In this document: positions 6,586 to 22,092 of the stretch, piece by piece
Position numbering within the stretch: position 1 is the stretch's first letter
Layout: each line of letters begins with the position of its first letter
Assembly (NCBI GenBank): GCA_019746425.1
Contig: JAIERY010000440.1
Span: forward strand, 1 to 35,670
Reading direction: 5' to 3'
Source: Cytophagaceae bacterium
GTDB taxonomy: Bacteria; Bacteroidota; Bacteroidia; Cytophagales; Cytophagaceae
Length of the DNA: 35,670 nucleotides
Position numbers and translations under genes: made by a program
Notes under the pieces: model-generated
Told to the model about the DNA's origin: nothing
Seen by the model: only the letters and a program-made list of their open reading frames with translations
The model's database searches: none

Positions 6586-7623
6586 TTATCCGGCTTCATG
6601 ATGCTCTTCTACTGCTGATCCAAAATACATAGCCGAAAGAAGGGTGAAAACATATGCCTGCAGCAACGCCACAAACAATTCCAGCACATTCATAAAGACT
6701 GCAAATGCAGCGCTTACAATTCCTACAGTTACACTTTTAAATAAAAAAGTAAAGCAAATTAAACTCAGAATAAGAATGTGACCGGCGGTGATGTTAGCAA
6801 AAAGACGTATCATCAGTGAAAATGGCTTGGTAAACATTCCAAGAATCTCAATAGGAAGAATAATAATTCTTAATGGCAAAGGCACGCCGGGTGTCCAGAA
6901 AATATGCCCCCAATAAGTTTTATTTCCACTGAAAGTAGTAATAAGAAAAGTAAACACTGCAAGCACTGCTGTTACTGCAATATTACCGGTGAGATTTGCT
7001 CCACCTGGAAGTAATCCTAAAAGATTGTTAAACCAAATGAAAAAGAAAACGGTAAGCAGGTAAGGCATAAATCTTTCGTATTTATGACCGATTACACTCT
7101 TGGCCACGTCATCTCTTATATATATTATAATAGGTTCGAAGAATGATTGTACACCTTTAGGAGCTGAACCAGGATTCTTCTTATATCTCCTGGCCATTCC
7201 AAGGAATATGAACAATAAAAGAATTACGCTTAACATTAGAGAAGCTACATTCTTTGTAATAGAGAGGTCAATGATTAGTTCTTTCCCCGACCCAGCAACT
7301 GTTTCAATTTTATTCTCTTCGTTTAGTATAAAACCATTATATGATGCATGACCATGCTCAAATCTTGAAGACATGAAAGCATCTAAACCAGCCTTGCCGT
7401 TTTCCTTAGATAATAAAATCACTGGAAGAGGTAATGACCAATGCGTACGCTCATCCCATGAAGCGAAATGCCAGTCATGAGAGTCTGCAATGTGATGCAT
7501 GATAGTAGGTGCAGGATTAAAAGGTTTATCGGCATTGTTTTCCTGATCATGACCAGCATAGGAAAACATAGCAATTGCCGAAAAAATAAGGGTGAAAAGT
7601 GTATTTTTTATGAAATTATCCAT
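6586..7623 (-). CDS. atpB: F0 ATP synthase a subunit with extended N-terminal domain
   Basis: A 345-residue stator channel subunit, longer than the roughly 270 residues of E. coli because of a Bacteroidota-type N-terminal extension. A probable signal peptide (MDNFIKNTLFTLIFSAIAMFSYA) precedes a His-rich region (MHHIADSHDWHF). The C-terminal membrane domain has NNLLGLLPGG and MIRLFANITAGH, whose Arg (about residue 273) is the essential arginine facing the c-ring Glu. A longer frame begins at a TTG (7671), but the ATG at 7623 gives a proper signal peptide and an 8-base overlap with the preceding gene, which suggests translational coupling. The protein ends with a His/Glu tail, VEEHHEAG. It is an inner-membrane protein. 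Confidence 0.96.
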   Translation of the reverse strand: MDNFIKNTLFTLIFSAIAMFSYAGHDQENNADKPFNPAPTIMHHIADSHDWHFASWDERTHWSLPLPVILLSKENGKAGLDAFMSSRFEHGHASYNGFILNEENKIETVAGSGKELIIDLSITKNVASLMLSVILLLFIFLGMARRYKKNPGSAPKGVQSFFEPIIIYIRDDVAKSVIGHKYERFMPYLLTVFFFIWFNNLLGLLPGGANLTGNIAVTAVLAVFTFLITTFSGNKTYWGHIFWTPGVPLPLRIIILPIEILGMFTKPFSLMIRLFANITAGHILILSLICFTFLFKSVTVGIVSAAFAVFMNVLELFVALLQAYVFTLLSAMYFGSAVEEHHEAG

Positions 7624-8011
7624 CTCGCTTAAAATCGGCTCGCAAGTTACGTAATAGAAAATAAATTTCAAACGATGTATATACTAAATAAAGTGCAAAA
7701 AAATTAACTACAAATGCCAGTAAATTGGAAGAAGAAGAATTAAGAATAATTATTACAAAAATTATACAAATAGGCAATCTGATCGCAACAGATAGAAAGA
7801 AAGAATTGTGGAAATCTTTTTTTTCTTTTAGTCCTTTAATCGAGATTAAATATGCTAATAAAGTAAGCAAAAAGAAGAAGCCAATAGTAATCCAGATCTG
7901 GTCATGGATAACAGAATTTTTAAGCATTTTCAGGGAAAACGCTAAGGCTGAAATTATTACAGTAATACCTGAAAGATTATAAAGGAATTTTACAAACAGC
8001 TTTTTGATCAT
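7616..8011 (-). CDS. Four-helix membrane protein in the AtpI position of the atp operon
   Basis: A 131-residue protein with four hydrophobic segments (about 13-30, 40-58, 70-89 and 96-119) and a basic C-terminus (RNLRADFKRDG). This topology and its place just before atpB match the AtpI accessory protein of other atp operons, although I see no diagnostic motif and sequence similarity is uncertain. AtpI-family proteins have been linked to c-ring assembly and, with AtpZ, to divalent cation transport. Its ATG overlaps the atpZ stop codon in an ATGA arrangement (8008-8011), and its end overlaps the atpB start by 8 bases. Translation of atpZ, this gene and atpB is therefore probably coupled. Confidence 0.75.
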   Translation of the reverse strand: MIKKLFVKFLYNLSGITVIISALAFSLKMLKNSVIHDQIWITIGFFFLLTLLAYLISIKGLKEKKDFHNSFFLSVAIRLPICIIFVIIILNSSSSNLLAFVVNFFALYLVYTSFEIYFLLRNLRADFKRDG

Positions 8012-8238
8012 TTCATTAAACTTCTAATTACATAGTAAATAGAAGCAATTACTGAAAATAATAAAAGGCCTATCGTAAAAAGATGGGATTTTACTTCAAA
8101 ATATTGATCGAGCTTTACTCCTGCAAATGCTCCTAAAGCAATGGTAGCAATCATTTGCATAACCATACTGGAGTATTTTACATAATTTTTAACAGGTTCC
8201 TTATTTGGCTCCGCCTGCTGCTCTGGTTTCTTCTCCAA
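8008..8238 (-). CDS. atpZ: AtpZ/AtpI-family accessory protein
   Basis: A 76-residue protein with a charged, proline-containing N-terminus and two membrane helices. The pattern YSSMVMQMIATIALGAFAGVKLDQYF, given here as the core MQMIATIALGAFAG plus KLDQYF, is typical of the small AtpZ/AtpI-related family (pfam AtpI-like, often called F0F1 ATPase subunit). The start is a TTG at 8238, within the last codons of the bactofilin gene (38-base overlap). The first ATG inside, at residue 25, would remove the conserved region before helix 1, so the TTG is preferred. The stop overlaps the next start (ATGA). It is likely an assembly factor or cation channel companion of the synthase rather than a structural subunit. 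Confidence 0.82.
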   Translation of the reverse strand: MEKKPEQQAEPNKEPVKNYVKYSSMVMQMIATIALGAFAGVKLDQYFEVKSHLFTIGLLLFSVIASIYYVIRSLMK

Positions 8239-8602
8239 GGTTGATTTCCTTTATGATAGCTCCCATTTTGCATAATCCATTGAAAGAAGCTCCGGGCTCT
8301 ACCACCAGCTTGTTGGTCACAATATCCCCATGAATAATACAGCTGCTCTTTAAAATCAGAAGGTCTGATACCTCTACAAGGCCTTTTACTTCACCTGCTA
8401 TTTCTGCATTCTGAGCTAAAATAGTACCGTCTATGGAAGCAGAATCTCCTATGGCCACTTTTGACTTGGATTTAATATTTCCAATTACTTTACCTTCAAT
8501 ACGGATATTTCCGAAAGTTTCGATATTTCCTTCCATTACCGAGCCTTTGCCCACGATGGTGCTCGAATTGCTCAGTTGTTCGATTTCTTTTGTTTTACTC
8601 AT
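8201..8602 (-). CDS. Bactofilin (polymer-forming cytoskeletal protein)
   Basis: A 133-residue protein of the bactofilin (DUF583) family. After a short disordered N-terminus, repeats of the form GxIxGxI build a right-handed beta-helix: SVMEGNIETFGNIRIEG, KVIGNIKSK, ASIDGTILAQNAEIAGEV and CIIHGDIVTNK. These subunits polymerise head to head without nucleotide and often bind the membrane or peptidoglycan enzymes. A second ATG lies two codons upstream (8608). It sits 26 bases (from 8602) after an M23-like gene, the same partnership seen for bactofilins that set cell shape in Helicobacter and Caulobacter relatives. Its 3' end overlaps atpZ, which ties it to the ATP synthase operon. The short basic tail is RAAGGAK. 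Confidence 0.93.
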   Translation of the reverse strand: MSKTKEIEQLSNSSTIVGKGSVMEGNIETFGNIRIEGKVIGNIKSKSKVAIGDSASIDGTILAQNAEIAGEVKGLVEVSDLLILKSSCIIHGDIVTNKLVVEPGASFNGLCKMGAIIKEINLGEETRAAGGAK

Positions 8603-8628
8603 AAACATATGTTGTAACTGGTTACTTT

Positions 8629-9483
8629 TCAGAAAGATATAAAATTTTCCGGATTTACCGAATTACCATCCTGCCAAATTTCGAAATGGAGACGGTATTT
8701 TTGGCCGGAATTATCCGTATTTCCCACAAGCCCTATCGGATCCCCTGCCTTCACATATTCTCCTGTCTGTTTCAGTAATACAGAATTATTCTTATAAAGA
8801 GAAATAAGGCCATTTTTATGCTGTATTGCCAGAATATAGCCTGTTTCGCCTGAATTTGAGAATATTACCATCCCATCCGCTATACTCTTAACAGTCTCTT
8901 TGGGCTTGGTAACAATATCTATCCCAAGAAAGTCCCTTTTATAGTCATATTTCTGCTCTAAAACTCCTTCAACAGGACGTATATAATAACTATTTTGATT
9001 ATTGCTGAAATCAGGGTTTATCGCAGCAATTACTCCATTTTCCTCTTCAATTTCCTTTCTCAGTTCTTTATCTACGGAAGATATATTGTCCAGGTTAAGG
9101 TCCTGCTTGGCTGTATTAGTATTATCAGTATTATTACTGGTATCTGAAATGAAATTTTCTCCTCTAAGAATCTTCATTAAATGCTTACTATATATATCCT
9201 TTCTTTGTCCGTCTTTTAAAAGAGAATCGACCTGAAATGATAATGAAATTATTTTTTTATCCTTCTCTAATTCCTGATATTCAGGGTTCAGCCATCGGAA
9301 TAAAGGACTATAAAGCAGGTAAAGACAGAAAAGAAAAACTGCAATAAAAAAAGTAAAGCCTAAAACGATTAATTTTGCATAATTAAAGCTAATAGTTCGT
9401 TTTTCAGCGAAATTTTCCTCATTACGAATAATTAATAAAAATCTATTCGTTAACCAGTTATATAATGTTTTTTTTATCTTCAA
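8629..9483 (-). CDS. Membrane-anchored LytM/M23-like protein, probably catalytically inactive
   Basis: A 284-residue protein: a basic N-terminus, one membrane helix (about 36-58), a coiled or charged linker with Asn/Asp/Thr-rich sequence (about 110-130), and a C-terminal LytM fold. Active M23 peptidases have HxGxD, YxH and HxH signatures. Here they read FLGID (Phe185, Asp189), YKN (Asn232) and RLH (Arg264, His266), so a metal ligand and catalytic histidines are missing. It probably acts as a scaffold or activator, as EnvC and Csd2 do. The start is a TTG at 9483 preceded by CAGGG; the ORF can be extended further upstream, but only into the divergent sprE gene. It heads the operon with bactofilin and the atp genes. 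Confidence 0.85.
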   Translation of the reverse strand: MKIKKTLYNWLTNRFLLIIRNEENFAEKRTISFNYAKLIVLGFTFFIAVFLFCLYLLYSPLFRWLNPEYQELEKDKKIISLSFQVDSLLKDGQRKDIYSKHLMKILRGENFISDTSNNTDNTNTAKQDLNLDNISSVDKELRKEIEEENGVIAAINPDFSNNQNSYYIRPVEGVLEQKYDYKRDFLGIDIVTKPKETVKSIADGMVIFSNSGETGYILAIQHKNGLISLYKNNSVLLKQTGEYVKAGDPIGLVGNTDNSGQKYRLHFEIWQDGNSVNPENFISF

Positions 9484-9577
9484 TGCCCTGAAAATATTGT
9501 TAAAAAGTTTTGAGACCTGGTTATTAACGCTGAAAAATATTAAAATTATTTTATATACCCCTTTAAAGCAAGGTTTT
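9484..9577. promoter_or_regulatory. Divergent intergenic region of the LytM-like gene and sprE
   Basis: These 94 AT-rich bases separate two TTG-started genes that run apart, so promoters for both the atp/bactofilin operon and the sprE-PBP-uvrC operon should lie here or just inside the genes. I found no exact TAnnTTTG box; the best is a 7-of-8 match, AAGTTTTG at 9506-9513 on the plus strand. A purine-rich stretch, AAGCAAGG, lies 4 bases before the sprE start and may serve as its ribosome binding site. Confidence 0.45.
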
Positions 9578-12157
9578 TTGAATATCAGAAATATAATCAT
9601 ATTAGTTTCATGTTGCTCCATGGGGCTTCTGTTATCGTGTTCCCAGGAAAAAAACACGTTTGTGAGCACTACCTTTCACAATACTACAGCCCATTACAAC
9701 GCTTATTTTCTCGCCAGGGAAAAAATGAAAGAAGTGGATGCCCAGATTATTACCTCCAATGTGGACGATTATAGTAAAATATTATCAGTTTATCCTTTAA
9801 TTACAACCGGCACACGAGGCACTATAAAACCAGGCCTGGAAGAAGTGATTAAAAAAGCCTCCCTGATCAATGAAAAGCATAAGAATAGCAAATGGCTCGA
9901 TGACAGTTATATCATTATAGGAAAATCATTTTATTATAAAAAAGAATATAAAACGGCATTAGCCTTTTTCAAATTTGTCAATTATAAAAGTCAGGATGCC
10001 AATGCAAGACATGCAGCTTTGATTTTGCTTATGCGCACTTATATTGATTCAGCAGATTATGCCAGTGCTAAAACTGTTTCAGACTACCTCAGCAAAAAAG
10101 GGACGGAAGGAGAAGTATTCTCTGAAGAGAATACCAAGAACTTTCATCTCACAAAGGCATATTATCATCAGCAGCTGGAAGAATACAAAGAGATGCTTTC
10201 CAACGTAGAGATTGCACTGCCTTTAATCAAAAAGAGACAGGAAAAGGGCAGAATTAATTTTATTGCCGGACAGCTCAATCAGATGTTTAATAAAGATTCG
10301 TCTGCATATGAAAATTACAGAGCTACAATTAAAACCAATCCACCTTACGATCTTTTATTTCACTCCAAACTTTATTTAACACAAGTATCACCTTCCACTA
10401 ATCAGTGGAGCAAAAAAAAGACACAGAAGTATTTCAATAAGCTGGCTAACGATAAAAAGAATACTGAGTACAAAGACAAAATATATTACGAACTGGGTTT
10501 GTATTATCTTAAACGAGGAGACGTAAAAGAATCCATCAGCAACCTTGAAAAGTCTCTCAGAGAAACCTCAAAAAATCCTAGCCAGAAAGGGCTCTCGTAT
10601 CTTAAACTGGGAGAAATTTATTATGACAATGAAAATTTTGAGTTATCAAAGCAATATTATGATAGCGCTGTAACGGCATGGGATAAGAATGATAAAAACT
10701 ACAAGCCCATTTCAACACGACAAAAAGTGCTGGAAGAATTTGTTCGCCACAAACAAACCGCAGAGCGGGAAGACAGCCTTCAGAGAATAGCAAAATTATC
10801 TAAAGATCAACTTGATAAATTAATTGATCAGATTATTGAAGATGAAAAAGAGAAAATAAAAAATGCTGAAAATCAGAAAAAGAAAAAATTTATTGAAAAT
10901 AACAATGTAGCAACCAACACAGATACGGATCCGGGTAATTTTGCACTTACCAACCCGGCAGCCATTGCTACAGGAAAAGTTGAATTTACAAAAGTATGGG
11001 GAACCAGAAAGCTGGAAGACAACTGGAGGAGATCCAATAAAGAAACTTCCTTTGACTTTGTGGAAGAAAAACAGAATAAAGTTGAAACTGATACTCTTAC
11101 GCAAGACAGTCTAAATGCAAAACCAAAAGAAATTGTAATCAATAGAGATCAGTTTTATAAAGACATTCCGTACACCCAGCAGCAGCTGGATACTTCCAAT
11201 AAAAAACTGGAAAACTCTTTATATAACATTGGTAAAATTTATAATCAAAAATTAAATGAGCCGGAAAATTCTATTAAAAGCTTTAATGAATTGTTAAAGA
11301 GGTTTCCTGAGTCGGAGTATAAAGCTGAAATATATTATTTCATATACCTGATTTATAAAAACAAAAACGACAACAGTAATTCGGAGGCATACAAAAATAA
11401 GCTATTTAATGAATTCCCAAATTCCCTTTATACCAAATTGCTTCGTAATCCTAATTATCTTCAGGACAACAAAGAAGCCAACCAGCAGGCACATTTGAAA
11501 TACAAAGAAGCTTTTGAATTATATAAATCAGGAGATTACAAAGCTGCTGATTCCTTAATAAAAGTCACAAGAATACAATTCCCTGATAACGATATTGATG
11601 ATAAGTTGAGCTTATTAAATATTTTAATCGTTGGGCAGACTGCCAATGCGGTAGTTTATAAAGAAAAGCTTCAGCAGTTTATAGATAATTATGGCAGCAG
11701 TCCTCTGCTTCCAAAAGCAAAGGAACTCCTTGCCGCAGCAGACACTTTTATGAATAAAAAAGCGGAAAAAGGTCAATCAGTAACTGCCGCAGATGTCAAA
11801 TACAGCACTGAATTAAATATGCCTCACCATTTTGTAGTAGTTTTACCTTCCAGTATTCCATCGAAGAAAGTGGTGAAGGAATTTAACTCTTACAATGATA
11901 ACTTTATTGAAAAATTTGAGCTAGGCACTGATATAACTGCGATTTCTGATACTACGTATATGGTAGTAGTAAGTGGCTTCCCGGAAAAATTCAATGCACA
12001 GGTGTATGCAAATAACCTTAAAAATGACAAATCTTTTTTCCAAAATAATGGTTATGTTAAATATCCGCTTTTTATTATCACAACTCATAATTTTCAATTA
12101 TTCCTGGAATCAAAAAATATCGAAGGGTATCTAAAATTCTATAAGGAAAAATATTAA
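9578..12157 (+). CDS. sprE: SprE/PorW-type TPR lipoprotein of type IX secretion and gliding
   Basis: An 859-residue outer-envelope lipoprotein. A TTG at 9578 gives a short signal peptide starting MNIRN with a lipobox LLLSC (Cys21). The following sequence STTFHNTTAHYNAYFLAREK is characteristic of SprE/PorW. Many tetratricopeptide-like helix pairs follow (for example YYELGLYYLKRGDVKESI and SLYNIGKIYNQKLNEPENSI), interrupted by a Lys/Glu/Asn-rich region near 440-540. The frame continues upstream to a TTG at 9497, but that extension destroys the signal peptide. In Flavobacterium and Porphyromonas this protein is needed for T9SS function and links the motor complex to the outer-membrane translocon. 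It is 8 bases from the PBP gene and in the same operon. Its location near gldKLMN and porP supports the assignment. Confidence 0.88.
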   Translation: MNIRNIIILVSCCSMGLLLSCSQEKNTFVSTTFHNTTAHYNAYFLAREKMKEVDAQIITSNVDDYSKILSVYPLITTGTRGTIKPGLEEVIKKASLINEKHKNSKWLDDSYIIIGKSFYYKKEYKTALAFFKFVNYKSQDANARHAALILLMRTYIDSADYASAKTVSDYLSKKGTEGEVFSEENTKNFHLTKAYYHQQLEEYKEMLSNVEIALPLIKKRQEKGRINFIAGQLNQMFNKDSSAYENYRATIKTNPPYDLLFHSKLYLTQVSPSTNQWSKKKTQKYFNKLANDKKNTEYKDKIYYELGLYYLKRGDVKESISNLEKSLRETSKNPSQKGLSYLKLGEIYYDNENFELSKQYYDSAVTAWDKNDKNYKPISTRQKVLEEFVRHKQTAEREDSLQRIAKLSKDQLDKLIDQIIEDEKEKIKNAENQKKKKFIENNNVATNTDTDPGNFALTNPAAIATGKVEFTKVWGTRKLEDNWRRSNKETSFDFVEEKQNKVETDTLTQDSLNAKPKEIVINRDQFYKDIPYTQQQLDTSNKKLENSLYNIGKIYNQKLNEPENSIKSFNELLKRFPESEYKAEIYYFIYLIYKNKNDNSNSEAYKNKLFNEFPNSLYTKLLRNPNYLQDNKEANQQAHLKYKEAFELYKSGDYKAADSLIKVTRIQFPDNDIDDKLSLLNILIVGQTANAVVYKEKLQQFIDNYGSSPLLPKAKELLAAADTFMNKKAEKGQSVTAADVKYSTELNMPHHFVVVLPSSIPSKKVVKEFNSYNDNFIEKFELGTDITAISDTTYMVVVSGFPEKFNAQVYANNLKNDKSFFQNNGYVKYPLFIITTHNFQLFLESKNIEGYLKFYKEKY

Positions 12158-12165
12158 AATAGTAA

Positions 12166-14469
12166 ATGGCAATCAGTAAAAAAATTTACAGCAGGCTCAC
12201 CGCCTTTTTCTGGATCAGCTTTGTTTGTGGCATTTCCTTCATAGCATTATGCATATATCTTGTTTCAATAAACTACAATAATCTTTTCGGTAAAATGCCC
12301 AGTCTGGAAAAACTGGAAAACCCAAAATCAGAAGTTGCTTCCGAACTTTATACTTCAGACAATGTGCTGCTTGGAAAATATTATCTGGAAAACAGATCAC
12401 CTGTAGAATATGAACAGATATCTCCTAATATGATCAATGCGCTAATAGCAACAGAAGATGCGCGCTTTGACGAACATTCTGGAATAGACCTGATAGGACT
12501 GTTCAGGGTTGCAATCAAGTCAGTGCTTCTACGGCAAGACAATGCGGGCGGAGGAAGTACCATATCCCAGCAGCTGGCAAAAAACTTATTTGAAACCCGC
12601 AGCACTTTATATGAAGGAGAATTAGCCAAAGACAACAAAATTTTCAGAGTAGTAATCAACAAAACAAAGGAGTGGATCACTGCTATAAATCTGGAAAGAG
12701 CCTATACCAAAAAAGAGATCATTACTATGTATTTAAATACAGTAGATTTTGGAAGTAATGCCTTTGGTATTAAAGTGGCTGCAAAAACTTTTTTCAATAC
12801 TACACCCGATAGCCTCACCATTCCCCAGGCTGCAGTCTTAGTAGGATTGCTGAAAGCACCGACCTTATATTCCCCGGTATTAAACCCGGAAAATTCTTTA
12901 GGGAGAAGGAATACTGTATTAGAACAGATGAATAAATATGGATTTCTATCCCAGAATAAATTTGACTCATTAAAACAATTACCTATTACTCTTAAATATA
13001 ATGTAGAGAATCATAATAAGGGACTGGCCACCTATTTCCGCGGAGCGATAACTGACTCTTTAAAAGTATGGTGTAAAAAAAGGGGTTATGATCTTTATTC
13101 CGATGGATTGAAAGTTTACTGCACCATTGATTCAAGGATGCAGAAGTATGCAGAAGAAGCTGTTACTGAACACATGAAGGATCAACAGAAAAAATTCTTC
13201 GCGCACTGGAAAGGTAAAAGCCCCTGGATAGATGAAGACAAAAGGGTAATCAAAGGATTTATAGAAAAAGCAGCTAAAACAACGCAGCGATACAGAGTTT
13301 TAAAGAAAAAGTTCGGGACTGATACGGTAAGTATATGGAAAGCGATGAACACAAAAGATACCATGAGAATTTTTACCTGGGATGGAGAAAAAGATACTAT
13401 CATGACTCCCATGGATTCCATAAGATATTACAAGCATTTTCTTCATACAGGTTTTATGGCAATGGATCCACATACCGGCCATATTAAAGCCTGGGTGGGA
13501 GGAATAAACTTCAAGCATTTTCAATATGACCATGTAATACAGGGAAAGAGGCAGCCTGGTTCTACATTTAAGCCAATAGTGTATGCTACAGCCATTAGCT
13601 TTGGTTATTCACCGTGTTATGAAGTTCCTGATCTCCCGGTGGCTTACCCAAGCGGTGATGAAAAAAACACTACTTGGGCACCAAAGAACAGTGATGGAAA
13701 ATTTTCCGGAGAAATATTCACTTTGCGCAGAGCCATGGCTAACTCAATTAATTCCATTACAGCCCATCTTATTCATAAAGTCACTCCCCAAAGAGTTGTG
13801 CAAATGGCAAGAGATCTGGGAATAAGAAGTCATCTTGATCCCGTATACGCTCTATGTCTTGGAGTGAGTGATGTCTCTGTATATGAATTAGTAGGAGCTT
13901 ATGCAGCATTTGCGAACAAAGGAGTTTATATTGAACCATTTTTCATTACACGAATAGAAGATAAAAATGGAAATGTACTGGAAGAATTCGTTCCTAAAAA
14001 AAATGAGGCTATGAGTGAAGAAGATGCCTATGCGATGGTCCATATGCTGAAAGGAGCAACGGAAGAAAAAGGAGGAACAGCACTTGGATTAAATAAGTGG
14101 GGCCTGCTCTGGAATGGAAATGAAATAGGTGCAAAGACAGGAACAACTCAAAATTATTCAGATGGATGGTTTATGGGAATTACTCCACTTCTTGCAGCAG
14201 GAGCATGGGTCGGAGGAGAGGATCGCTGTATACACTTTAATTATATGGACCTTGGACAAGGCGCCCGAACAGCGATGCCTATATGGGCCCTATTTATGAA
14301 AAAAGTCTATGGGGATACAACGCTGGGATATAAAAATGAAAAATTTCCGGAGCCGGAAAATCCATTGCATGTAGAAATTGACTGCAAAAAATATAAACAA
14401 GGTCTGGAATTCAGTTTTGATTCCCTCCCCGTCACAAACCAAAAACATGTCATTCCCAGTGAATGGTAA
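12166..14469 (+). CDS. Class A penicillin-binding protein (PBP1A-type)
   Basis: A 767-residue bifunctional peptidoglycan synthase anchored by an N-terminal membrane helix (about 11-34). The GT51 glycosyltransferase domain carries ATEDARFDEHSGID with catalytic Glu97 and GGGSTISQQLAKNLF. The transpeptidase domain carries PGSTFKP (Ser466, Lys469), NSIN (Ser527, Asn529) and AKTGTTQNYSDGWF (Lys657-Gly659), so all active-site motifs are intact. It polymerises lipid II and crosslinks stem peptides in the periplasm. It starts 8 bases after sprE and ends 6 bases before uvrC, so the three genes are probably one transcript. PBP1A versus PBP1C cannot be settled; the lack of a C-terminal PBP1C-type domain favours PBP1A. 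Confidence 0.94.
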   Translation: MAISKKIYSRLTAFFWISFVCGISFIALCIYLVSINYNNLFGKMPSLEKLENPKSEVASELYTSDNVLLGKYYLENRSPVEYEQISPNMINALIATEDARFDEHSGIDLIGLFRVAIKSVLLRQDNAGGGSTISQQLAKNLFETRSTLYEGELAKDNKIFRVVINKTKEWITAINLERAYTKKEIITMYLNTVDFGSNAFGIKVAAKTFFNTTPDSLTIPQAAVLVGLLKAPTLYSPVLNPENSLGRRNTVLEQMNKYGFLSQNKFDSLKQLPITLKYNVENHNKGLATYFRGAITDSLKVWCKKRGYDLYSDGLKVYCTIDSRMQKYAEEAVTEHMKDQQKKFFAHWKGKSPWIDEDKRVIKGFIEKAAKTTQRYRVLKKKFGTDTVSIWKAMNTKDTMRIFTWDGEKDTIMTPMDSIRYYKHFLHTGFMAMDPHTGHIKAWVGGINFKHFQYDHVIQGKRQPGSTFKPIVYATAISFGYSPCYEVPDLPVAYPSGDEKNTTWAPKNSDGKFSGEIFTLRRAMANSINSITAHLIHKVTPQRVVQMARDLGIRSHLDPVYALCLGVSDVSVYELVGAYAAFANKGVYIEPFFITRIEDKNGNVLEEFVPKKNEAMSEEDAYAMVHMLKGATEEKGGTALGLNKWGLLWNGNEIGAKTGTTQNYSDGWFMGITPLLAAGAWVGGEDRCIHFNYMDLGQGARTAMPIWALFMKKVYGDTTLGYKNEKFPEPENPLHVEIDCKKYKQGLEFSFDSLPVTNQKHVIPSEW

Positions 14470-14475
14470 TTCATC

Positions 14476-16257
14476 ATGGAATCCGCAAAAGATTTAATAC
14501 AGAATGTTCCTGACAAACCAGGGATTTATAAATTTTTTGATGAGACCGATACTCTTATATATGTAGGCAAGGCGAAAAATATAAAGAAAAGAGTAAGTAA
14601 TTATTTCAACAAGCTTTCTCATCTCGATGATAAAACCAGGAAATTGGTGAGCCAGATAAAGAAAATAGAGTATACTATTGTTAATACCGAATTTGACGCA
14701 CTTCTGCTTGAAAATAATTTAATTAAATCCCAACAACCAAAATATAATATCCTCTTAAAGGATGACAAAAGCTTTCCCTATATCTGTATTACCAATGAAA
14801 GATTTCCGAGGTTAATAAGCACCAGAAGATTTGATCCTTCTTCCGGAAATTATTTCGGTCCTTATACCAATGTCAAAGCCATGAATACTGTGATTGAGTT
14901 AATCAGAAAACTCTATTATCTCAGAACCTGCACGTATAATCTCAGTCAGAAAAATATTGAAGAAAAAAAATATAAGATATGCCTGGAGTTTCATATTGGT
15001 AATTGCAAAGGGCCCTGCGAAGGATTAGTTCCCGAAGAAGAATACAATGATAATATTCAGCAAATTAAAGCTATACTCAAAGGAGAAATTAATTATGCAA
15101 AAAATTTCTTCAGGGTTCAAATGTCTGAAGCTTCTCAAAAATTAGAATATGAGAAAGCTCAGGTATTTAAAAACAAATTAGATCTTCTGGAAAAATTTCA
15201 AAATTATTCCGTGATTGTTAATCCTAATATTACAGACCTTGAGGTTTTTTCTATTAATAGTAATGAAAATATTGCGGTAGTCAATTACCTTAAAATTGTA
15301 AATGGCACTATCAGCCAGACAAGAAATATTGAAATCAAAAAGAAATTGAATGAGAAAGATGAAGAAGTTCTTGTACATGCCATAATAAATATCCGAACGG
15401 AATTAAATAGTACTGAAAAGGAAATTCTTGCAAATATAAATATAGATATTCCCATAGATGGCGTGACCATTACTGTTCCACAAAAAGGTGACAAGAAAAA
15501 ATTACTGGATATTTCTTTAAAGAATATTCGTTACCATCTCGAAAAACTGGATGAAGGAAGTGAAGAGAAGGAAGAAAAGAAAAAGAGGGTTTTAATTACA
15601 CTTCAAAAAGATTTACAATTACCCGAATTGCCTGATCACATTGAATGTTTCGATAATTCAAATATTCAGGGCTTCAATCCTGTAGCTTCTATGGTATGTT
15701 TCCGAAACGGCAAACCTTTTAAAAAAGACTACAGGCATTACAATATAAAAACAGTATTAGGCCCCAATGATTTTGATTCTATGTACGAAATTGTTCATAG
15801 ACGATATAAAAGATGCATTGAAGAATCTTTATCCCTTCCCAAGCTTACAATTATTGACGGAGGGAAAGGTCAGCTAAGCGCTGCCATAAAAGCTTTACAG
15901 GATCTGGGCCTTTATGGAAAAATTCCAATTATAGGTTTAGCAAAAAAGCTTGAAGAAATTTACTATCCCGGGGATACGGATCCTCTTTTTATTGATAAAA
16001 AATCTGAATCGTTAAAACTTATTCAGCAAATAAGAAACGAAGCCCACCGCTTCGCCATTAATTTTCATAGAGATAAAAGAAGTAAAAGCAGCCTGGTATC
16101 CGGCCTGATAAAAATTCCTGGAATTGGAGAAAGTACATTTAAAAAGCTTATTACAAAATTTAAAACGATATCCAATATTAAAAATGCATCAGTAACTGAT
16201 TTAGCTGAAGTAATTGGATTGAAGAAAGCCCAAAAACTTAAAGATGATTTAAAATAA
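14476..16257 (+). CDS. uvrC: Excinuclease ABC subunit C
   Basis: A 593-residue DNA repair nuclease. The GIY-YIG domain opens the protein (PGIYKFF with Gly16-Tyr18, IYVGKAKNIKKRV with Arg39) and makes the 3' incision. The Cys-rich NCKGPCEG segment and a UVR helix pair (EKAQVFKNKLDLLEKF) that contacts UvrB follow. The RNase H-like half with ECFDNSNIQG, IIDGGKGQL and NEAHRFAINFHR makes the 5' incision. A helix-hairpin-helix pair ends the protein (KIPGIGESTFKKLI, EVIGLKKAQKL). Length is normal and no key residue appears lost. It begins 6 bases after the PBP stop and is closed by a terminator whose A-rich side overlaps the stop codon. Confidence 0.98.
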   Translation: MESAKDLIQNVPDKPGIYKFFDETDTLIYVGKAKNIKKRVSNYFNKLSHLDDKTRKLVSQIKKIEYTIVNTEFDALLLENNLIKSQQPKYNILLKDDKSFPYICITNERFPRLISTRRFDPSSGNYFGPYTNVKAMNTVIELIRKLYYLRTCTYNLSQKNIEEKKYKICLEFHIGNCKGPCEGLVPEEEYNDNIQQIKAILKGEINYAKNFFRVQMSEASQKLEYEKAQVFKNKLDLLEKFQNYSVIVNPNITDLEVFSINSNENIAVVNYLKIVNGTISQTRNIEIKKKLNEKDEEVLVHAIINIRTELNSTEKEILANINIDIPIDGVTITVPQKGDKKKLLDISLKNIRYHLEKLDEGSEEKEEKKKRVLITLQKDLQLPELPDHIECFDNSNIQGFNPVASMVCFRNGKPFKKDYRHYNIKTVLGPNDFDSMYEIVHRRYKRCIEESLSLPKLTIIDGGKGQLSAAIKALQDLGLYGKIPIIGLAKKLEEIYYPGDTDPLFIDKKSESLKLIQQIRNEAHRFAINFHRDKRSKSSLVSGLIKIPGIGESTFKKLITKFKTISNIKNASVTDLAEVIGLKKAQKLKDDLK

Positions 16258-16280
16258 AAAAGCCCCAATGGGGCTTTTTT
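16256..16280. terminator. Bidirectional terminator between uvrC and gldN
   Basis: An 11-bp stem (16256-16266 with 16270-16280) has a GCCCC/GGGGC core, a 3-base loop, A residues on the left and T residues on the right. It ends the sprE-PBP-uvrC transcript on the plus strand and the gldKLMN transcript on the minus strand, 24 bases past the gldN stop. Confidence 0.92.
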
Positions 16281-16304
16281 ATTTATGAAAAAATTAAGTC
16301 TTGA

Positions 16305-17207
16305 TTAAAATTCCCAAAGATTGTGTTCGTATTCCAATAATTCGAACGCAGCCCACTGAGAAGACATTATACCTTTTACCTGATCTCCGCCATAGATATC
16401 TACAAGATATGCATCATCGGGATTAGATACTTTGATGATATAAGAACTGAACAATCTCAATTCAACAGCATCTGCCAGAGACTTATGCTGCGCATCATTT
16501 TGTGGGTTATACCAGATAGCATTTGGATTATCCGTCAACACCTTTACAACATCTTTGTAAGCAAAGCTTGCTGCTGTTAATTCGATACCTTTAATGTTAG
16601 ATGGATGATCTGCAGGAACTAATATGGTAATAGCATGAACATCGTAATACATTCTGGATCTTTGTTTATCGAAGATTAAATCTTCTTTAATCTGCATCTG
16701 GTAAAGATCTCTCGGGAAGTAGTAGTTAGGCCCGCCCGCACCTGCCTGCATGAAAGACGAATCTCCATTTGCAAGCATGATGTCTTTTTCTTCCTGAGTC
16801 AACTCAGCCTGATCTGAAGGAACTTTAATGTTTTCTTTAAATTCCTCGATCGTCAACTGTCTTCCTTCTTCAAGTGAATCATTAGCATACGGCTTAAGAT
16901 CTCCTCTTTCAACGGCCTCGATCAACAGCTTGGTGATTTCTTTATTTTTCGAGAACAATGGTTTGTTTTGTTTCTCACGAAGATCGACCGCGCGGATGAT
17001 TGTCTTTTTAAACATAACATCTGATTCGTGCACTGGTCTTACCGAATACTTATTGAATCCACCCTGCATTACCGGATCTCCGGTAGTTGTGGTAGTAGTT
17101 GTTGTTGGCTCAGTCGGAGTATCTGTAGTAGTTGTTTCAGTTTCCTGAGCAAACACTACTGCAGTACTAAAAGTCAGGCCCAACAGAATAACACTTAATT
17201 TTTTCAT
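16305..17207 (-). CDS. gldN: Gliding motility / type IX secretion protein GldN (PorN)
   Basis: A 300-residue periplasmic protein with a signal peptide (MKKLSVILLGLTFSTAVVFA, cleaved before QET). Residues 22-43 form a Thr/Pro-rich low-complexity linker with an eight-threonine run, then the GldN domain follows with RPVHESDVMFKKTI, REKQNKPLF and AKG-less but typical DVHAITILVP and YKDVVKVL segments, ending ELLEYEHNLWEF. GldN and the lipoprotein GldK form the large periplasmic ring of the T9SS that contacts the GldL/GldM motor. It is the last gene of the gldKLMN operon, 28 bases after gldM and 24 bases before a terminator. The linker is unusually simple in sequence and its DNA could vary in length. 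Confidence 0.95.
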   Translation of the reverse strand: MKKLSVILLGLTFSTAVVFAQETETTTTDTPTEPTTTTTTTTGDPVMQGGFNKYSVRPVHESDVMFKKTIIRAVDLREKQNKPLFSKNKEITKLLIEAVERGDLKPYANDSLEEGRQLTIEEFKENIKVPSDQAELTQEEKDIMLANGDSSFMQAGAGGPNYYFPRDLYQMQIKEDLIFDKQRSRMYYDVHAITILVPADHPSNIKGIELTAASFAYKDVVKVLTDNPNAIWYNPQNDAQHKSLADAVELRLFSSYIIKVSNPDDAYLVDIYGGDQVKGIMSSQWAAFELLEYEHNLWEF

Positions 17208-17235
17208 AATATTCCTGTTTAAATATCTAAACGAA

Positions 17236-18858
17236 TTAGTGTAGAGGTATATTTTTAATAACTGTACCTAAGTTCACTTCTTCAACTTTATTCAAGAAGT
17301 TGGTTCTTGTAACTTTTTTCACCTCGATCAAAATCCTGTCGCCAGGTTGAGCCGCAGATGCAAAGTTCGAAAGGTTACCTACTTCTGTTTTGAAGTTGTT
17401 AGTAGCTACAGGTCTCTTTCCTCTTACAAGGATACAATCCCATTCTGACACTTTATAACGAGCATCTTTTGGCAAGAATGCTGCAAAACTTTCGTCAGGA
17501 ACTGCTTTCATTTGAAGGCTTCTTGGACCTGGAGCAGGCACCCCTGTTTTTTCGTTTACAGGCGTACGTCCGGCAAGACACTCAATAGTTGGTTTAGGGA
17601 TTAACCTAACTTTAAACTCCTGAGAACCGATAGCATTTCCGTTACTTGATACATATAAATTTACTTTAGCACCGGTTGGAATCACTGTTACAATTCCTTT
17701 TTGCCCGCCAGCGATAACACTGGCACCGTCAGCTCTGAAAGAAGGGCTATAAGTTGATCCCAATGCAGGAACCTGTACGTTTAATTCATTACCGCAGTTT
17801 TTGTAAAGCGCATTTACTGAAGCAGACTGTACCTGGATAACCGGTCTTGCTACGATATATTCTTCTTCTACAGGGAAGATGGTATCTTTTCCTCTGAAGT
17901 TGAATTTAATAGCGCCTTTCCATTTTTTCTTTGCATTACCGTCTTTATCATAGGCTCCAGGAGTTACAGTGAATTGCACTTTACCTCTTTTTGTTGAAGC
18001 ATCTACTACAAGGTCTCTGCCTTCGCAAGTCATTGTAGGAGTAATTGAACTGGCAGATGCGGTAAGGAATAATTCTGCTTCATATTTTGTACCGGCAGCA
18101 ACTACTTTAGAAGTTGGTCTCACCATCGCAGTTACCTGGTCAAATTTTAAGTCGGCAGCGCCTACTTCTTTTGCAAGAGCAGCCAATATTTCGCCTTCAT
18201 ACTTCAGAATTTCAGATTCCTGCTGTGCCATAACTGCAAGAGCCGCTACAAGAGGAGTGTTTGCAAAGTTAAGTTCTCCGAAATCCTTATTTCTCTGATC
18301 AGGATCATTCTTGAAAAGAGGGTGATCTTTCCCGTCAAAAGCAATCTGACCTGGAACCTCCACCTTGTTATTAGGATCTCTCATATTTTGTCCTGCCTGC
18401 TTAAGGAACGAAGCATACTCATTAAGATCTTTCTTAAGTGGATAAGCTTTCCCTTGTTTGGTAGGGCCAAGCATCATGATAGCAACTTTCTCTTCTTCTT
18501 TAGCGCCTTTATATGTTTTATGCCCTTCTTCTACATCATAACCCCCGGTTGCAACAATCATTTCCTCTCTGAGCTTGTTTATTTTACTAAGAATTTCTTC
18601 TGTCTTCTTATGAACAAGATCAGCTCTATCAACAACAGCTTTATCTTTGTTACCTTCATCGGCAACAGTTTTCTTAATTCTGTTGATTACAGCTACGTTT
18701 TCTTCGGTTGTTTGACGGTTAAGGTTCATCAAACTATTATCCAGCTGAATAAATTTCTGGATGATAGCAGAACTTACCTGGAGCGCAAGTAGCGCCGTTA
18801 ATACCAAGTACATCATACCGATCATTTTCTGTCTTGGGGTTTCTTTTCCTCCAGCCAT
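17236..18858 (-). CDS. gldM: Gliding motility / type IX secretion motor protein GldM (PorM)
   Basis: A 540-residue inner-membrane protein. The N-terminus MAGGKETPRQKMIGMMYLVLTALLALQVS holds Arg9 and the single membrane helix that packs inside the GldL pentamer, here shown by the core RQKMIGMMYLVLTALLAL. A large periplasmic region of helices followed by stacked beta domains spans toward the GldK/GldN ring; the last domain starts near PKPTIECLAGRTPV. GldM is the rotor-like shaft that transmits proton-motive force to the T9SS and to gliding adhesins. It lies between gldL (45 bases before) and gldN (28 bases after), and the length agrees with the family (about 515-540). Confidence 0.97.
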   Translation of the reverse strand: MAGGKETPRQKMIGMMYLVLTALLALQVSSAIIQKFIQLDNSLMNLNRQTTEENVAVINRIKKTVADEGNKDKAVVDRADLVHKKTEEILSKINKLREEMIVATGGYDVEEGHKTYKGAKEEEKVAIMMLGPTKQGKAYPLKKDLNEYASFLKQAGQNMRDPNNKVEVPGQIAFDGKDHPLFKNDPDQRNKDFGELNFANTPLVAALAVMAQQESEILKYEGEILAALAKEVGAADLKFDQVTAMVRPTSKVVAAGTKYEAELFLTASASSITPTMTCEGRDLVVDASTKRGKVQFTVTPGAYDKDGNAKKKWKGAIKFNFRGKDTIFPVEEEYIVARPVIQVQSASVNALYKNCGNELNVQVPALGSTYSPSFRADGASVIAGGQKGIVTVIPTGAKVNLYVSSNGNAIGSQEFKVRLIPKPTIECLAGRTPVNEKTGVPAPGPRSLQMKAVPDESFAAFLPKDARYKVSEWDCILVRGKRPVATNNFKTEVGNLSNFASAAQPGDRILIEVKKVTRTNFLNKVEEVNLGTVIKNIPLH

Positions 18859-18903
18859 ATTTTTAAAATAATTTTAAAGGTTTAATATATCAATAACAGA
18901 AAA

Positions 18904-19695
18904 TTAAGCTTTCATTGCAGCAAGCATGTTGCCGTATACATTATTCAATGTAGACAAGTTCTTTCCAAGTTTGGATAGTTCTTCTTTGAATTGAGAAGTT
19001 TCTTTGCTTGCCTCTGACATGTTTTCCATAGCAGAAGAAAGGTTTCCGTAAAACTTGTTCATTGCTCTTAAATGGTTATTAGCATCTTGTAATTCCATTT
19101 CGTATACAGCATTCAATGCACCAAGGTTTTTAGTGATGTTTTGAACTTGTGCATGGTATTCTCTTGCATCAGAAGTAGCGTTAGCCATTTCACCAACTGC
19201 TTCAACTGTTTTTGCATAAGATTTATTTACTTCAACGATTGATTTAGAAGCTGCTTTAACGTTTTCAGCATACTCGCTGGTAGCTACTGCTGCGTTAGAA
19301 AGAGTTCCCATGCTCTCAACATTTTGAGAAAGGTTTTGTAAACCTGTTCCTAGTTTGTTGATTACAGCCTGATCAATGTTTGCATCTGACATCATTTCGT
19401 CAAGTTTCTTTGTTACAGAAGCGCCTGTTGCTTCTCCACCCTCATTGTAGTAATCATCTGCTAACTGAGGATACACTCTTTCCCACTGTGGCTCTTTGTG
19501 AGTCGGTTGAAACGCAGAAAATGCGAAGATAAGAGCCTCTGTAGAGAGACCGACAATAAGCATCTCGTTAGCGCCTGGCCAGTGCATAATTTTAAACATC
19601 GCACCAACGATAACGACTGCCGCACCCAAGCCATATACAAGGGGCATTACTTTGTCAAAGAAATACTGTTTGAAACCACCATTATTTGTACTCAT
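18904..19695 (-). CDS. gldL: Gliding motility / type IX secretion motor protein GldL (PorL)
   Basis: A 263-residue inner-membrane protein with two membrane helices in the first 65 residues. They read VYGLGAAVVIVGAMFKIMHW and MLIVGLSTEALIFAFSAFQ, joined by a PGANE turn. Glu53 in the second helix is the likely membrane-buried acid that works with GldM Arg9. The remaining 200 residues are long charged and polar helices in the cytoplasm (repeated ENV, AASKS and SKLGKNLSTLNN-type stretches). GldL forms a pentamer around a GldM dimer and converts the proton gradient into motion. It is 110 bases after gldK, without a clear terminator in the gap, and 45 bases before gldM. Confidence 0.96.
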   Translation of the reverse strand: MSTNNGGFKQYFFDKVMPLVYGLGAAVVIVGAMFKIMHWPGANEMLIVGLSTEALIFAFSAFQPTHKEPQWERVYPQLADDYYNEGGEATGASVTKKLDEMMSDANIDQAVINKLGTGLQNLSQNVESMGTLSNAAVATSEYAENVKAASKSIVEVNKSYAKTVEAVGEMANATSDAREYHAQVQNITKNLGALNAVYEMELQDANNHLRAMNKFYGNLSSAMENMSEASKETSQFKEELSKLGKNLSTLNNVYGNMLAAMKA

Positions 19696-19805
19696 TGTTG
19701 TAAAATTTAGTTTATGTTTAACAATTAACTATATACTGTTTAAATGATCTTAAAGATGACTCTTTAGATGAAATAGAATTTTGAATTAATTAGATAAGTC
19801 TGGTA

Positions 19806-20834
19806 TTAAAACTCAAATCCTGAAGACCTTCCCAGGTATGTCATTACACATCTGAATCCTATATAAGATTTAGTTGTGTCCTGATATTCGAAGGCTCTGG
19901 TACCTGTTTCAAGGTAATAAGCAATATCTTTCCAGGAACCGCCACGAACAATTTTTCTAGGTTCGTTGTCATCGTAATAAGTTGGGTTAAGATCCCAAAC
20001 TACCGGAACAGCGGCATCAAAGTATGCATCTTCGCACCACTCTGAAATGTTTCCAGCCATATCGTAAAGACCAAAGTCATTAGAGAAATAAGAAGCAACT
20101 GGAGACGAGTACATGAAACCATCATCATAATAGTTTCCTCTTCCAGGCTTAAAGTTTGCAAGCATACAACCTTTAGCATTTCTTATGTAAGGGTTACCCC
20201 AAGGGTATTTAGCCATATCTCTTCCTCCTCTTGCGGCATATTCCCATTCAGCTTCTGAAGGCAATCTGAAGTTAGGCATTTTCCAAAGTCCCTGAGTAGC
20301 TCTCCAGTTGTTTAAGTGCTTGGTTCTCCATTCGCAGAAATATTTTGCTGCAAACCAATCCACTCCAACTATAGGGTATTCATCAAATGCAGGGTGAGCG
20401 TAATAGTATTCCATCATTGGATCTCCCATGTGGTGAGAGAAGTCACGAACCCAAACGGTAGTATCCGGATAAAGTTCGGTCATAATGTAGTCTTCACCTA
20501 AAACAGAAACGGAATCTTTTAGCATTACATCAATGAACTGTCTGTATTCATTGTTAGTAATTTCCGTTTCATCCATGTAAAAACCACCAATTGTGACCTG
20601 CTTGTTGAGGTTAATCTGCGAAGCAGGAACATCCTGGTCAGCTTGTCCCATATGGAAAGTACCAGACGGACAAACAACCATACCATAAGGAACAGTTTGT
20701 ACCCAACCTTCTCTGCCGGGAACTCCGATCAATTCGCCTCCTCCATCTTCTGAGTCAGCTCCACCTGATCTTCCTCCGCAGCTTTGAAGTAGAACAACTA
20801 CCCCTAAAGACATGAAGAACAATAGTTTTTTCAT
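19806..20834 (-). CDS. gldK: Gliding motility / type IX secretion ring lipoprotein GldK (PorK)
   Basis: A 342-residue lipoprotein of the formylglycine-generating-enzyme/sulfatase-modifying fold. The start at 20834 gives a signal peptide with lipobox LLQSC; an ATG six codons upstream (20852) is possible but gives a less typical N-terminus. The FGE-like domain shows CPSGTFHMGQ, DETEITNNEYRQFI, PVVWDL, LPSEAEWEYAARGG and IVRGGSWKD, but the catalytic cysteines of true FGE enzymes are not evident, as expected for a structural GldK. It makes the outer-membrane-attached periplasmic ring with GldN. It is the first gene of the gldKLMN unit and has a good promoter 53 bases upstream. Confidence 0.95.
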   Translation of the reverse strand: MKKLLFFMSLGVVVLLQSCGGRSGGADSEDGGGELIGVPGREGWVQTVPYGMVVCPSGTFHMGQADQDVPASQINLNKQVTIGGFYMDETEITNNEYRQFIDVMLKDSVSVLGEDYIMTELYPDTTVWVRDFSHHMGDPMMEYYYAHPAFDEYPIVGVDWFAAKYFCEWRTKHLNNWRATQGLWKMPNFRLPSEAEWEYAARGGRDMAKYPWGNPYIRNAKGCMLANFKPGRGNYYDDGFMYSSPVASYFSNDFGLYDMAGNISEWCEDAYFDAAVPVVWDLNPTYYDDNEPRKIVRGGSWKDIAYYLETGTRAFEYQDTTKSYIGFRCVMTYLGRSSGFEF

Positions 20835-20886
20835 AACACCTGATTTAATCATAATTCAAAATTTTAATTTCTTAATTTCTTTTATT

Positions 20887-20914
20887 CAAAATTAAAAATG
20901 CCAATATAAGTCAA
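20887..20914 (-). promoter_or_regulatory. Bacteroidota-type promoter upstream of gldK
   Basis: On the minus strand a TTG (20912-20914) is followed after 17 bases by TAATTTTG (20887-20894), an exact match to the TAnnTTTG -7 box with a -33-like TTG at suitable spacing. Transcription would start near 20880, leaving about 46 bases to the gldK start. This is the best promoter seen in the window and suggests gldKLMN can be transcribed apart from porP. Confidence 0.65.
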
Positions 20915-21057
20915 TAAAGTTAGTAAATTTTATTAAGTAACGCAACGCTTTAGATCTTATTATTAAAATCCAAAAAAACCTAATAAAACTCCTATACTAA
21001 ACGAAAAAGTCATACAAGTTGCAAAAAAATATTTAAATAACCAAACTTCAGAAGGGA

Positions 21058-22092
21058 TTAATTTTCCTCGTGTCTGTAACGTGGCGTCCTTACTTTTGGT
21101 TTCGGAAGAGCCCAAGGCGTTGGGGTCATGTAGGATACCATGATCTCATGGGAAGTACGTTTTTTAGCATTAACTCCACTTGTAACGAAGTCAAACGCAT
21201 ATCCTAATCTCAAGGCATCATTTCCTTGTTTATTTTTCAAAACGTTTATTCCTACATATAGAATAATATCATCATTACTTAGTGTTTTCCCCTTTTTGGC
21301 AGCTTCTCTTTCAGCAAATGATTGTCTGAAATTAAGTCCAGCCCATATTTTATTATTATATGTTGCCAAAGCTCCAAAAAGATAGGTTAACTCATTAAGA
21401 TCTGTCTGTATTAACGCCGACGGGGTGATTATAATATTAGTACCAAGGGTGAAATTATATCCTCCGGTAATATACATGTGGTTAATAAGCTTGGAGGCTA
21501 TAGAGTCTGAACCTAAACTATATTTTGCCTGTGGAATATGGGTAAAACTGATACCCCCGTAATATTTTTTGGTATTATACCATACGCCTCCCGTAAGATC
21601 GGCTTTAAGCTGGGAAACGCTGTTATTATTCTGAAAATACTGATAAATCGGATCAGAAGGGTCAACTACCCTATAAAAATCAGTATTAACTTTCTGTGAG
21701 TAAAAACCGCCACGTAAACCGATTCCTAAAGTACCGTCTTTTACCTTTAAATGATAAGAGTAGGATAACTGTACATCAAGGTTTCTTATTGGCCCAAGCC
21801 GGTCAAATAAAAAATATACTCCGGCTCCGCCGTAATTTTTGGGAAGTTTAGTGCTTCCGGTTAGGATCTGGCTATTAGGGGCAGTTCCCTTATATTCGGT
21901 GGGCTCATATCCGAGCCATTGTGTTCTGTGAATCAATGAAAATCTTGTTACTCCTTCTATCCCTGCATACCCTGGGTTTAAATATAGTCCGTTGAACATG
22001 TACTGACTAAATTGGGCATCTTGCTGACCAAAAACTGTATTGGAAACAAAAAATAGAGAAGGCAAAATAAGCAGCAATAATACTCTTTTCAT
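21058..22092 (-). CDS. PorP/SprF-family type IX secretion membrane protein
   Basis: A 344-residue outer-membrane beta-barrel. A signal peptide ending FVSNTVFG precedes QQDAQFSQYMFNGLYLNPGYAG, the hallmark start of the PorP/SprF family (seen as AQFSQYMFN and LNPGYAG). Further strands include HRTQWLGYEP, GGAGVYFLFDRLGP and LGIGLRGGFYS. Members anchor the motor to the outer membrane or guide specific cargo such as SprB. It lies 223 bases before gldK in the same direction, as in other gliding Bacteroidota. Several paralogs usually occur per genome, so whether this is the core PorP or a cargo-specific SprF is not decided. The C-terminus is a basic Lys/Arg/Pro-rich tail. Confidence 0.93.
   Translation of the reverse strand: MKRVLLLLILPSLFFVSNTVFGQQDAQFSQYMFNGLYLNPGYAGIEGVTRFSLIHRTQWLGYEPTEYKGTAPNSQILTGSTKLPKNYGGAGVYFLFDRLGPIRNLDVQLSYSYHLKVKDGTLGIGLRGGFYSQKVNTDFYRVVDPSDPIYQYFQNNNSVSQLKADLTGGVWYNTKKYYGGISFTHIPQAKYSLGSDSIASKLINHMYITGGYNFTLGTNIIITPSALIQTDLNELTYLFGALATYNNKIWAGLNFRQSFAEREAAKKGKTLSNDDIILYVGINVLKNKQGNDALRLGYAFDFVTSGVNAKKRTSHEIMVSYMTPTPWALPKPKVRTPRYRHEEN

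Follow-up and report, generated by a model that had tools for sequence, protein, structure and literature searches.

The window, i.e. the whole stretch of 35,670 nucleotides under study, carries on its reverse strand the gene of an LmdC-like bitopic protein whose M23/LytM domain has lost the residues of its active site, and this gene is followed by that of a bactofilin. We consider that this protein is probably a catalytically inactive relative of the LmdC-type bactofilin partners, kept for its membrane-anchoring half, which would bind the bactofilin. The protein of 284 amino acids (positions 8629..9483, coding part 8632-9483) begins with a TTG codon, a start that is frequent among its orthologs. 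Its N-terminal cytoplasmic tail (residues 1-36; 9376..9483, reverse strand as for all the segments of the protein) contains the motif RNEENFAEK, invariant in an alignment of 74 close orthologs, and the residue R20 is invariant in every alignment. A predicted transmembrane helix (residues 37-58 approximately; 9310..9375), recognized as a hydrophobic segment and modelled by AlphaFold as a helix from residue 35 to 58, is followed by a long helix predicted to be a periplasmic coiled coil from the alignment and the AlphaFold model (residues 60-106; 9166..9306), where Asp86, Ser87 and Leu88 are conserved. The degenerate LytM domain occupies the residues 166-284 (8632..8988). The Pfam family Peptidase_M23 (PF01551) matches the residues 187-278 with 79.7 bits for a cut-off of 28.7 (E = 1.9e-22). 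The AlphaFold model has a mean pLDDT of 70.5, with values of about 61 to 89 per ten-residue block in the LytM part, and the retention of the LytM fold is partly built in, since the alignment used for the model is made of active homologs. The best fold matches of the model are the LytM domain of EnvC (4bh5, E = 6.3e-9; also 8c0j), Csd1-Csd2 and DipM. The tail, strongly conserved in sequence, was modelled in two AlphaFold runs as a helix (residues 7-27) with a modest pLDDT. A beta-hairpin such as that reported for the tail of LmdC appeared in neither run.

The three motifs of the active site are all altered. The motif HxGxD has become FLGID (residues 185-189, 8917..8931; H185F, Asp189 kept), the motif YxH has become YKN (residues 230-232, 8788..8796; H232N) and the motif HxH has become RLH (residues 264-266, 8686..8694; H264R, His266 kept). 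According to the convention of the Staphylococcus aureus LytM, which we take to apply here, the losses concern one zinc ligand (the first His of HxxxD) and both catalytic histidines. One of the three zinc ligands (H185F) and the two catalytic histidines (H232N, H264R) are thus absent. An active M23 peptidase displays a complete HxxxD, the catalytic His of YxH and a complete HxH, where the window protein has Phe185, Asn232 and Arg264. The positions 185, 189, 232, 264 and 266 were scored across the window protein and 116 full-length orthologs aligned with it, and the residues H/D/H/H/H are found there in 108 of the 117 rows, which indicates that the loss is real and is not the norm of the family. 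No His is located within five residues of position 185 or 232 of the window protein, and His266 is the only one near position 264; histidines shifted to neighbouring positions are thus ruled out. The non-catalytic His222 (in IQH) is invariant in all 117 rows, dead and active proteins alike. By its sequence, the peptidase of the window protein is catalytically dead. The preliminary description had listed exactly these three motifs with Asp189 and His266 remaining, and its opinion that zinc hydrolysis is very unlikely is borne out; the alignment with relatives that it had proposed, with scoring of the zinc and catalytic positions, upholds the loss.

Nineteen genomes of the window's family were searched (genomes, loci, genera and families are designated hereafter by working labels). 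The N-terminal half of the protein was found in 11 of them and a bactofilin related to that of the window in the same 11, the eight others having neither; all 11 genomes with the bactofilin have the N-terminal half and all eight without it lack it, and the two are unrelated to each other in sequence. None of the 11 copies possesses an intact LytM site: eight are altered, one is altered and frameshifted in a homopolymer, and two have no domain. The residues at the five positions are FDNRH in the window protein, LRNVS in G004, SGKNY in G005, G011 and G015, MFGVK in G002, SSSKH in G006 and QTQKI in G008. The former active-site surface is therefore wholly different among relatives. The frameshifted copy (G018, also SGKNY) differs by one added A in a run of A, and PorW is also in three pieces in this genome, so that we take this case as a probable assembly error and not as decay. 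In G009 and G013, about 112 N-terminal residues are left, and the bactofilin frame opens 65 and 13 bp further on. The sister genus g10 has deleted the entire LytM domain and kept the remainder. If the family is a natural group, the simplest reading of these sequences would be one inactivation in its ancestor, followed by divergence and by one deletion.

The distribution of constraint along the protein differs between active and dead homologs. Among active homologs, the mean identity is 0.59 in the LytM domain vs 0.30 in the N-terminal part, whereas between the window protein and its nearest relatives the identity is 0.51-0.58 over the 105 N-terminal residues and 0.38 in LytM. The ratio of dN/dS in LytM to dN/dS in the N-terminal half is comprised between 0.05 and 0.84 in 28 close pairs of active homologs and between 2.1 and 4.2 in three pairs of dead homologs from the genus g6. 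In this genus, the dN/dS is 0.065-0.10 for the dead LytM domain and 0.02-0.04 for the N-terminal half. The dead domain is thus constrained rather than drifting, and being under purifying selection where this is measurable, it does something in those species. A pseudogene is ruled out in g6 by these values, which also agree with the earlier statement that the gene is intact and selected. For the window protein itself, selection may be assumed by analogy with g6, the genus of all the dead pairs compared. Judged from these comparisons, the window's family has seen the constraint move away from LytM and onto the cytoplasmic tail, the transmembrane helix and the coiled coil. Concerning decay of close homologs into pseudogenes, which the preliminary description had named as evidence against itself, close relatives have indeed lost the domain, but through replacement and clean deletion and not through pseudogene formation; the partner half is retained.

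The bactofilin (135 amino acids; 8201..8608, reverse strand) was identified with the Pfam family Bactofilin (PF04519; 91.2 bits for a cut-off of 27.9, 5.2e-26). It starts about 20 bp past the stop codon of the M23 gene and is the only one found by a search of the window's genome. On the same strand, the order is M23, bactofilin, AtpI-like, Hyp131 and atpBEFHAG. The frame 8008..8166 (start uncertain) encodes a small membrane protein that is presumably AtpI-like, a name given from its position. Hyp131, a conserved membrane protein of 131 amino acids to which no function has been assigned (7616..8011), lies between it and the ATP synthase subunit a (AtpB; 6586..7671), the first recognisable gene of the atp cluster; all three are on the reverse strand. 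The divergent neighbour on the forward strand is PorW/SprE, a type IX secretion lipoprotein (9497..12157; NCBIfam NF052312, E = 6e-196). Nearly every long locus of the order, also where the active site is intact, keeps the arrangement of uvrC-PBP1A-porW divergent from M23-bactofilin-Hyp131-atpB. The placing of the M23 gene ahead of the atp genes is thus an ancestral trait of the order, without connection to the loss of activity. The M23 gene lies apart from the atp genes in other lineages, and the proposal that its expression is tied to energy metabolism through the atp operon is not supported. In the family f2, no bactofilin is present within about 3 kb at most loci, and in the family f26 neither bactofilin nor PorW is near the M23 gene; the gene arrangement is therefore dispensable. 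A Bacteroidota-type promoter motif is not above chance in the window (3 sites vs 2.64 expected), and none of the sites is in the M23-bactofilin operon.

Other features of the region can be mentioned. PorW/SprE is followed by PBP1A, UvrC, then GldN-, GldM-, GldL-, GldK- and PorP/SprF-like genes (9497-22092; all names except PorW were given by inspection). The frame 29543-31963 of the forward strand encodes, by inspection, a Wzc-like polysaccharide co-polymerase/kinase with C-terminal Gly-Tyr repeats (YGYGYGYGYGY). A gene like Hyp131 stays with the short partner gene in relatives from f24 where no atp gene was matched (the loci relevant to Hyp131 are L326, L312 and L323).

The link between the M23 gene and the bactofilin, already put forward in the preliminary description, is supported by the adjoining genes, whose adjacency is conserved in most families of the order, and by co-occurrence. 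Of the 243 genomes of the order, 131 contain both the N-terminal half and the bactofilin, one contains the N-terminal half only, seven the bactofilin only and 104 neither, these counts depending on the sensitivity of the profiles. Several genomes, mostly from f9, have a bactofilin and no detectable N-terminal partner gene, and no M23 gene of the window protein's family is present in the stretches around the bactofilins of L301 (G060), L302 (G073) and L303 (G130). The association is looser in the wider class, where five genomes have the N-terminal half and no detectable bactofilin: G370 and G393 with an N-terminal-only protein, and G420, G469 and G477 with a longer version. These are the main exceptions to the reading of the protein as a bactofilin partner. 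The N-terminal-only proteins that persist in two of them (L315 in G370, L323 in G393) could have a different partner. The short gene of G393 is followed by a gene similar to Hyp131 and by no bactofilin.

Death and deletion of the M23 domain, as read from sequence comparison, recur elsewhere in the phylum. Outside the window's family, 122 loci of the order were detected: 109 have all five active-site residues, seven are altered and six have no LytM domain. The altered or deleted loci belong to the families f6, f15, f16, f20 and f21; some of these genomes are drafts, and single cases may thus be assembly errors. In G067 (f20), 114 residues are kept with the bactofilin 4 bp away, and in three more f20 genomes the short form is distant from the bactofilin, which is nevertheless present elsewhere in the genome. 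An N-terminal profile search of 297 genomes of the phylum gave 60 matches. Among the matches listed, those from f24 are all short frames (129-145 amino acids), and of the eight f24 loci fetched, six have the bactofilin alongside and seven face PorW. Most genera of f26 have an intact LytM (HDHHH). In two species of the genus g113 of this family, the domain is full-length but dead (FKNTR), with the motifs FLA-I/V and YKN much like those of the window protein, and in the other species fetched it is deleted. The dead LytM proteins L339 (G527) and L340 (G329) of f26 carry the same replacements of His by Phe at position 185 and of His by Asn at position 232 as the window protein. The family f26 thus presents the intact, dead and deleted states together, resembling the dead and deleted series of the window's family.

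A role of receptor or adaptor agrees best with the conserved tail, the linkage with the bactofilin and the persistence of anchor-only forms. At the inner membrane, the short cytoplasmic tail (RNEENFAEK) would bind polymers of the bactofilin, whose position would be relayed into the periplasm by the transmembrane helix and the coiled coil; the protein may in this way affect cell shape. Instead of being an endopeptidase, it would serve as membrane receptor for the bactofilin polymer or stabilise it, and perhaps also be an adaptor for other wall proteins; the dead LytM domain would represent a dispensable structural or binding appendage, deleted in sister lineages. The bactofilin BacA of Hyphomonas neptunium and Rhodospirillum rubrum is bound directly by the N-terminal cytoplasmic tail of LmdC, a binding that BacA needs for its normal placement (PMC10945521). 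Moreover, a client protein can replace the membrane anchor of a bactofilin (PMC12448750). Several points speak against this role: the tail is modelled as a helix, there are exceptions without bactofilin, the dead LytM domain is still selected, and the N-terminus of the window's bactofilin (MFMSKTKE) resembles the membrane-targeting sequence published in PMC12448750. With what is apparently a membrane-targeting sequence of its own, this bactofilin would not strictly need an anchor protein.

A dead LytM domain could also be a hydrolase activator of the EnvC, NlpD or DipM type, binding amidases or other autolysins and switching them on where the bactofilin places it. The EnvC domain is the best fold match, although such a likeness is common to all M23 domains; the genome contains two Amidase_3 proteins, purifying selection acts on the dead domain and, according to PMC10336132, one dead LytM domain of DipM interacts with several autolysins. 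However, the former active-site surface, used by EnvC for activation (PMC5053510), changes from one sister genus to another, and g10 has deleted the domain. With the EnvC equivalog NF008644, the window protein reaches 56.7 bits for a cut-off of 270. The window's genome also encodes a second degenerate LytM protein (L006, G000:C365:221-496) of about 436 amino acids, EnvC-like by its size and its lost motifs, and at least four further M23 proteins whose motifs are complete. Together with the two amidases, these proteins indicate that hydrolase partners exist, yet that an activator is not obviously missing, and we regard an activator function as unlikely. The M23 proteins with complete motifs could alternatively provide the active half of a dimer, positioned or regulated by the window protein beside the bactofilin. 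This is the situation of Csd2, which likewise lacks the first His of HxxxD and HxH (PMC5053510), and Csd1-Csd2 structures are among the fold matches. But the Csd1-Csd2 dimer uses a helical domain formed by helices before and after LytM (PMC5053510), whereas the window protein ends directly after LytM; the locus contains no second, active M23 gene, and relatives that have deleted the domain make an essential LytM dimer less likely. Such a partnership therefore appears improbable.

Deletion in g10 would be expected if the loss of the peptidase had relaxed selection and the protein were slowly eroding with little function left, and the accelerated divergence of LytM in the entire family and the loss of both gene and bactofilin in eight of 19 family genomes point in the same direction. 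We give little credence to this explanation: the frames are open in eight of the nine family copies that bear the domain, the sole frameshift being that of G018, the dN/dS values given above are low in both parts of the protein, and the co-occurrence with the bactofilin is near-perfect in the order. The pair Asp189/His266, kept in the window protein, might finally support a weak or altered activity or a binding to peptidoglycan. The protein lacks both catalytic histidines and one zinc ligand, relatives have lost Asp189 and His266 too, and SpoIIQ, devoid of the equivalent His ligand and of the catalytic His, binds no metal (PMC5053510), which makes this residual function very improbable. As to the non-enzymatic wall or shape scaffold like EnvC or Csd2 of the preliminary description, its non-enzymatic, selected and bactofilin-linked character stands. 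The part that depends on the dead LytM domain is not supported in detail, given the variable surface, the N-terminal shift of constraint, the deletion in the sister genus and the separate EnvC-like protein.

The role of bactofilin partner that we favour may extend beyond the window's family. Tentatively, the ancestral and indispensable role of the bactofilin-M23 partner across Bacteroidota could be to act as a transmembrane receptor for bactofilin, while the peptidase would be optional and would have been independently inactivated, then deleted, in several lineages; this generalization is possible but somewhat doubtful. The lineages concerned would be the window's family, f20, f24, the genus g113 (f26) and some members of f15 and f21. 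In work on bactofilin-M23 pairs, the M23 protein is regarded as the enzyme through which the cytoskeleton acts. The present cases constitute a natural separation experiment, where the enzyme has been lost several times and the half with membrane helix and tail has been kept, almost always in genomes that encode a bactofilin; this predicts a non-enzymatic, receptor-like function of the tail. The proteins of the G009/G013 type (about 112 amino acids) are minimal proteins for testing such a function. The anchor-only proteins (about 110-165 residues; no Pfam match in the two that were scanned) make up an unannotated family of short proteins, which can now be flagged as what is left of a wall enzyme. 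Both degenerate LytM proteins and bactofilin-M23 pairs have been described before. The novelty seems to lie in the peptidase having been inactivated and deleted repeatedly within a conserved Bacteroidota module whose membrane half is kept. A literature search, covering sources outside most subscription journals, returned no description of this repeated loss, and no paper dealing with a Flavobacterium bactofilin or linking bactofilin to gliding in Bacteroidota.

Among the known systems, the closest to the window pair is LmdC-BacA of H. neptunium and R. rubrum (PMC10945521), where the genes are also adjacent and the partner is also a bactofilin. LmdC and the window protein are both bitopic M23 proteins with a short cytoplasmic tail, a transmembrane helix, a coiled coil and a C-terminal LytM domain, a layout predicted for the latter from its sequence and the AlphaFold model. 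However, LmdC is an active DD-endopeptidase and its tail is a beta-hairpin that binds the bactofilin (PMC10945521), whereas the window protein is a dead peptidase with the tail motif RNEENFAEK modelled as a helix, and the window pair is located, unlike LmdC-BacA, between porW and the atp genes. Because of the lost active-site residues, we do not file the window protein as an LmdC-type enzyme. Csd2 of Helicobacter pylori (PMC5053510) is also a degenerate LytM protein encoded near a bactofilin (CcmA), in which HxxxD and HxH have likewise each lost their first His; its locus contains the active partner Csd1 and it has a helical dimerisation domain, whereas the window has one M23 gene only and the helical domain is absent. 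EnvC and DipM (PMC10336132, PMC5053510) share the dead LytM fold and include the closest structural match. They differ in being division factors that are not known to have a bactofilin partner, and EnvC depends on the residues around the degenerate site (PMC5053510), which differ between genera in the relatives of the window protein. Finally, SpoIIQ is similarly a membrane protein with a degenerate LytM domain, without the His of HxxxD and the catalytic His, that is used structurally; it is a component of the sporulation channel of Firmicutes with SpoIIIAH as partner, whereas the partner of the window protein would be the bactofilin.
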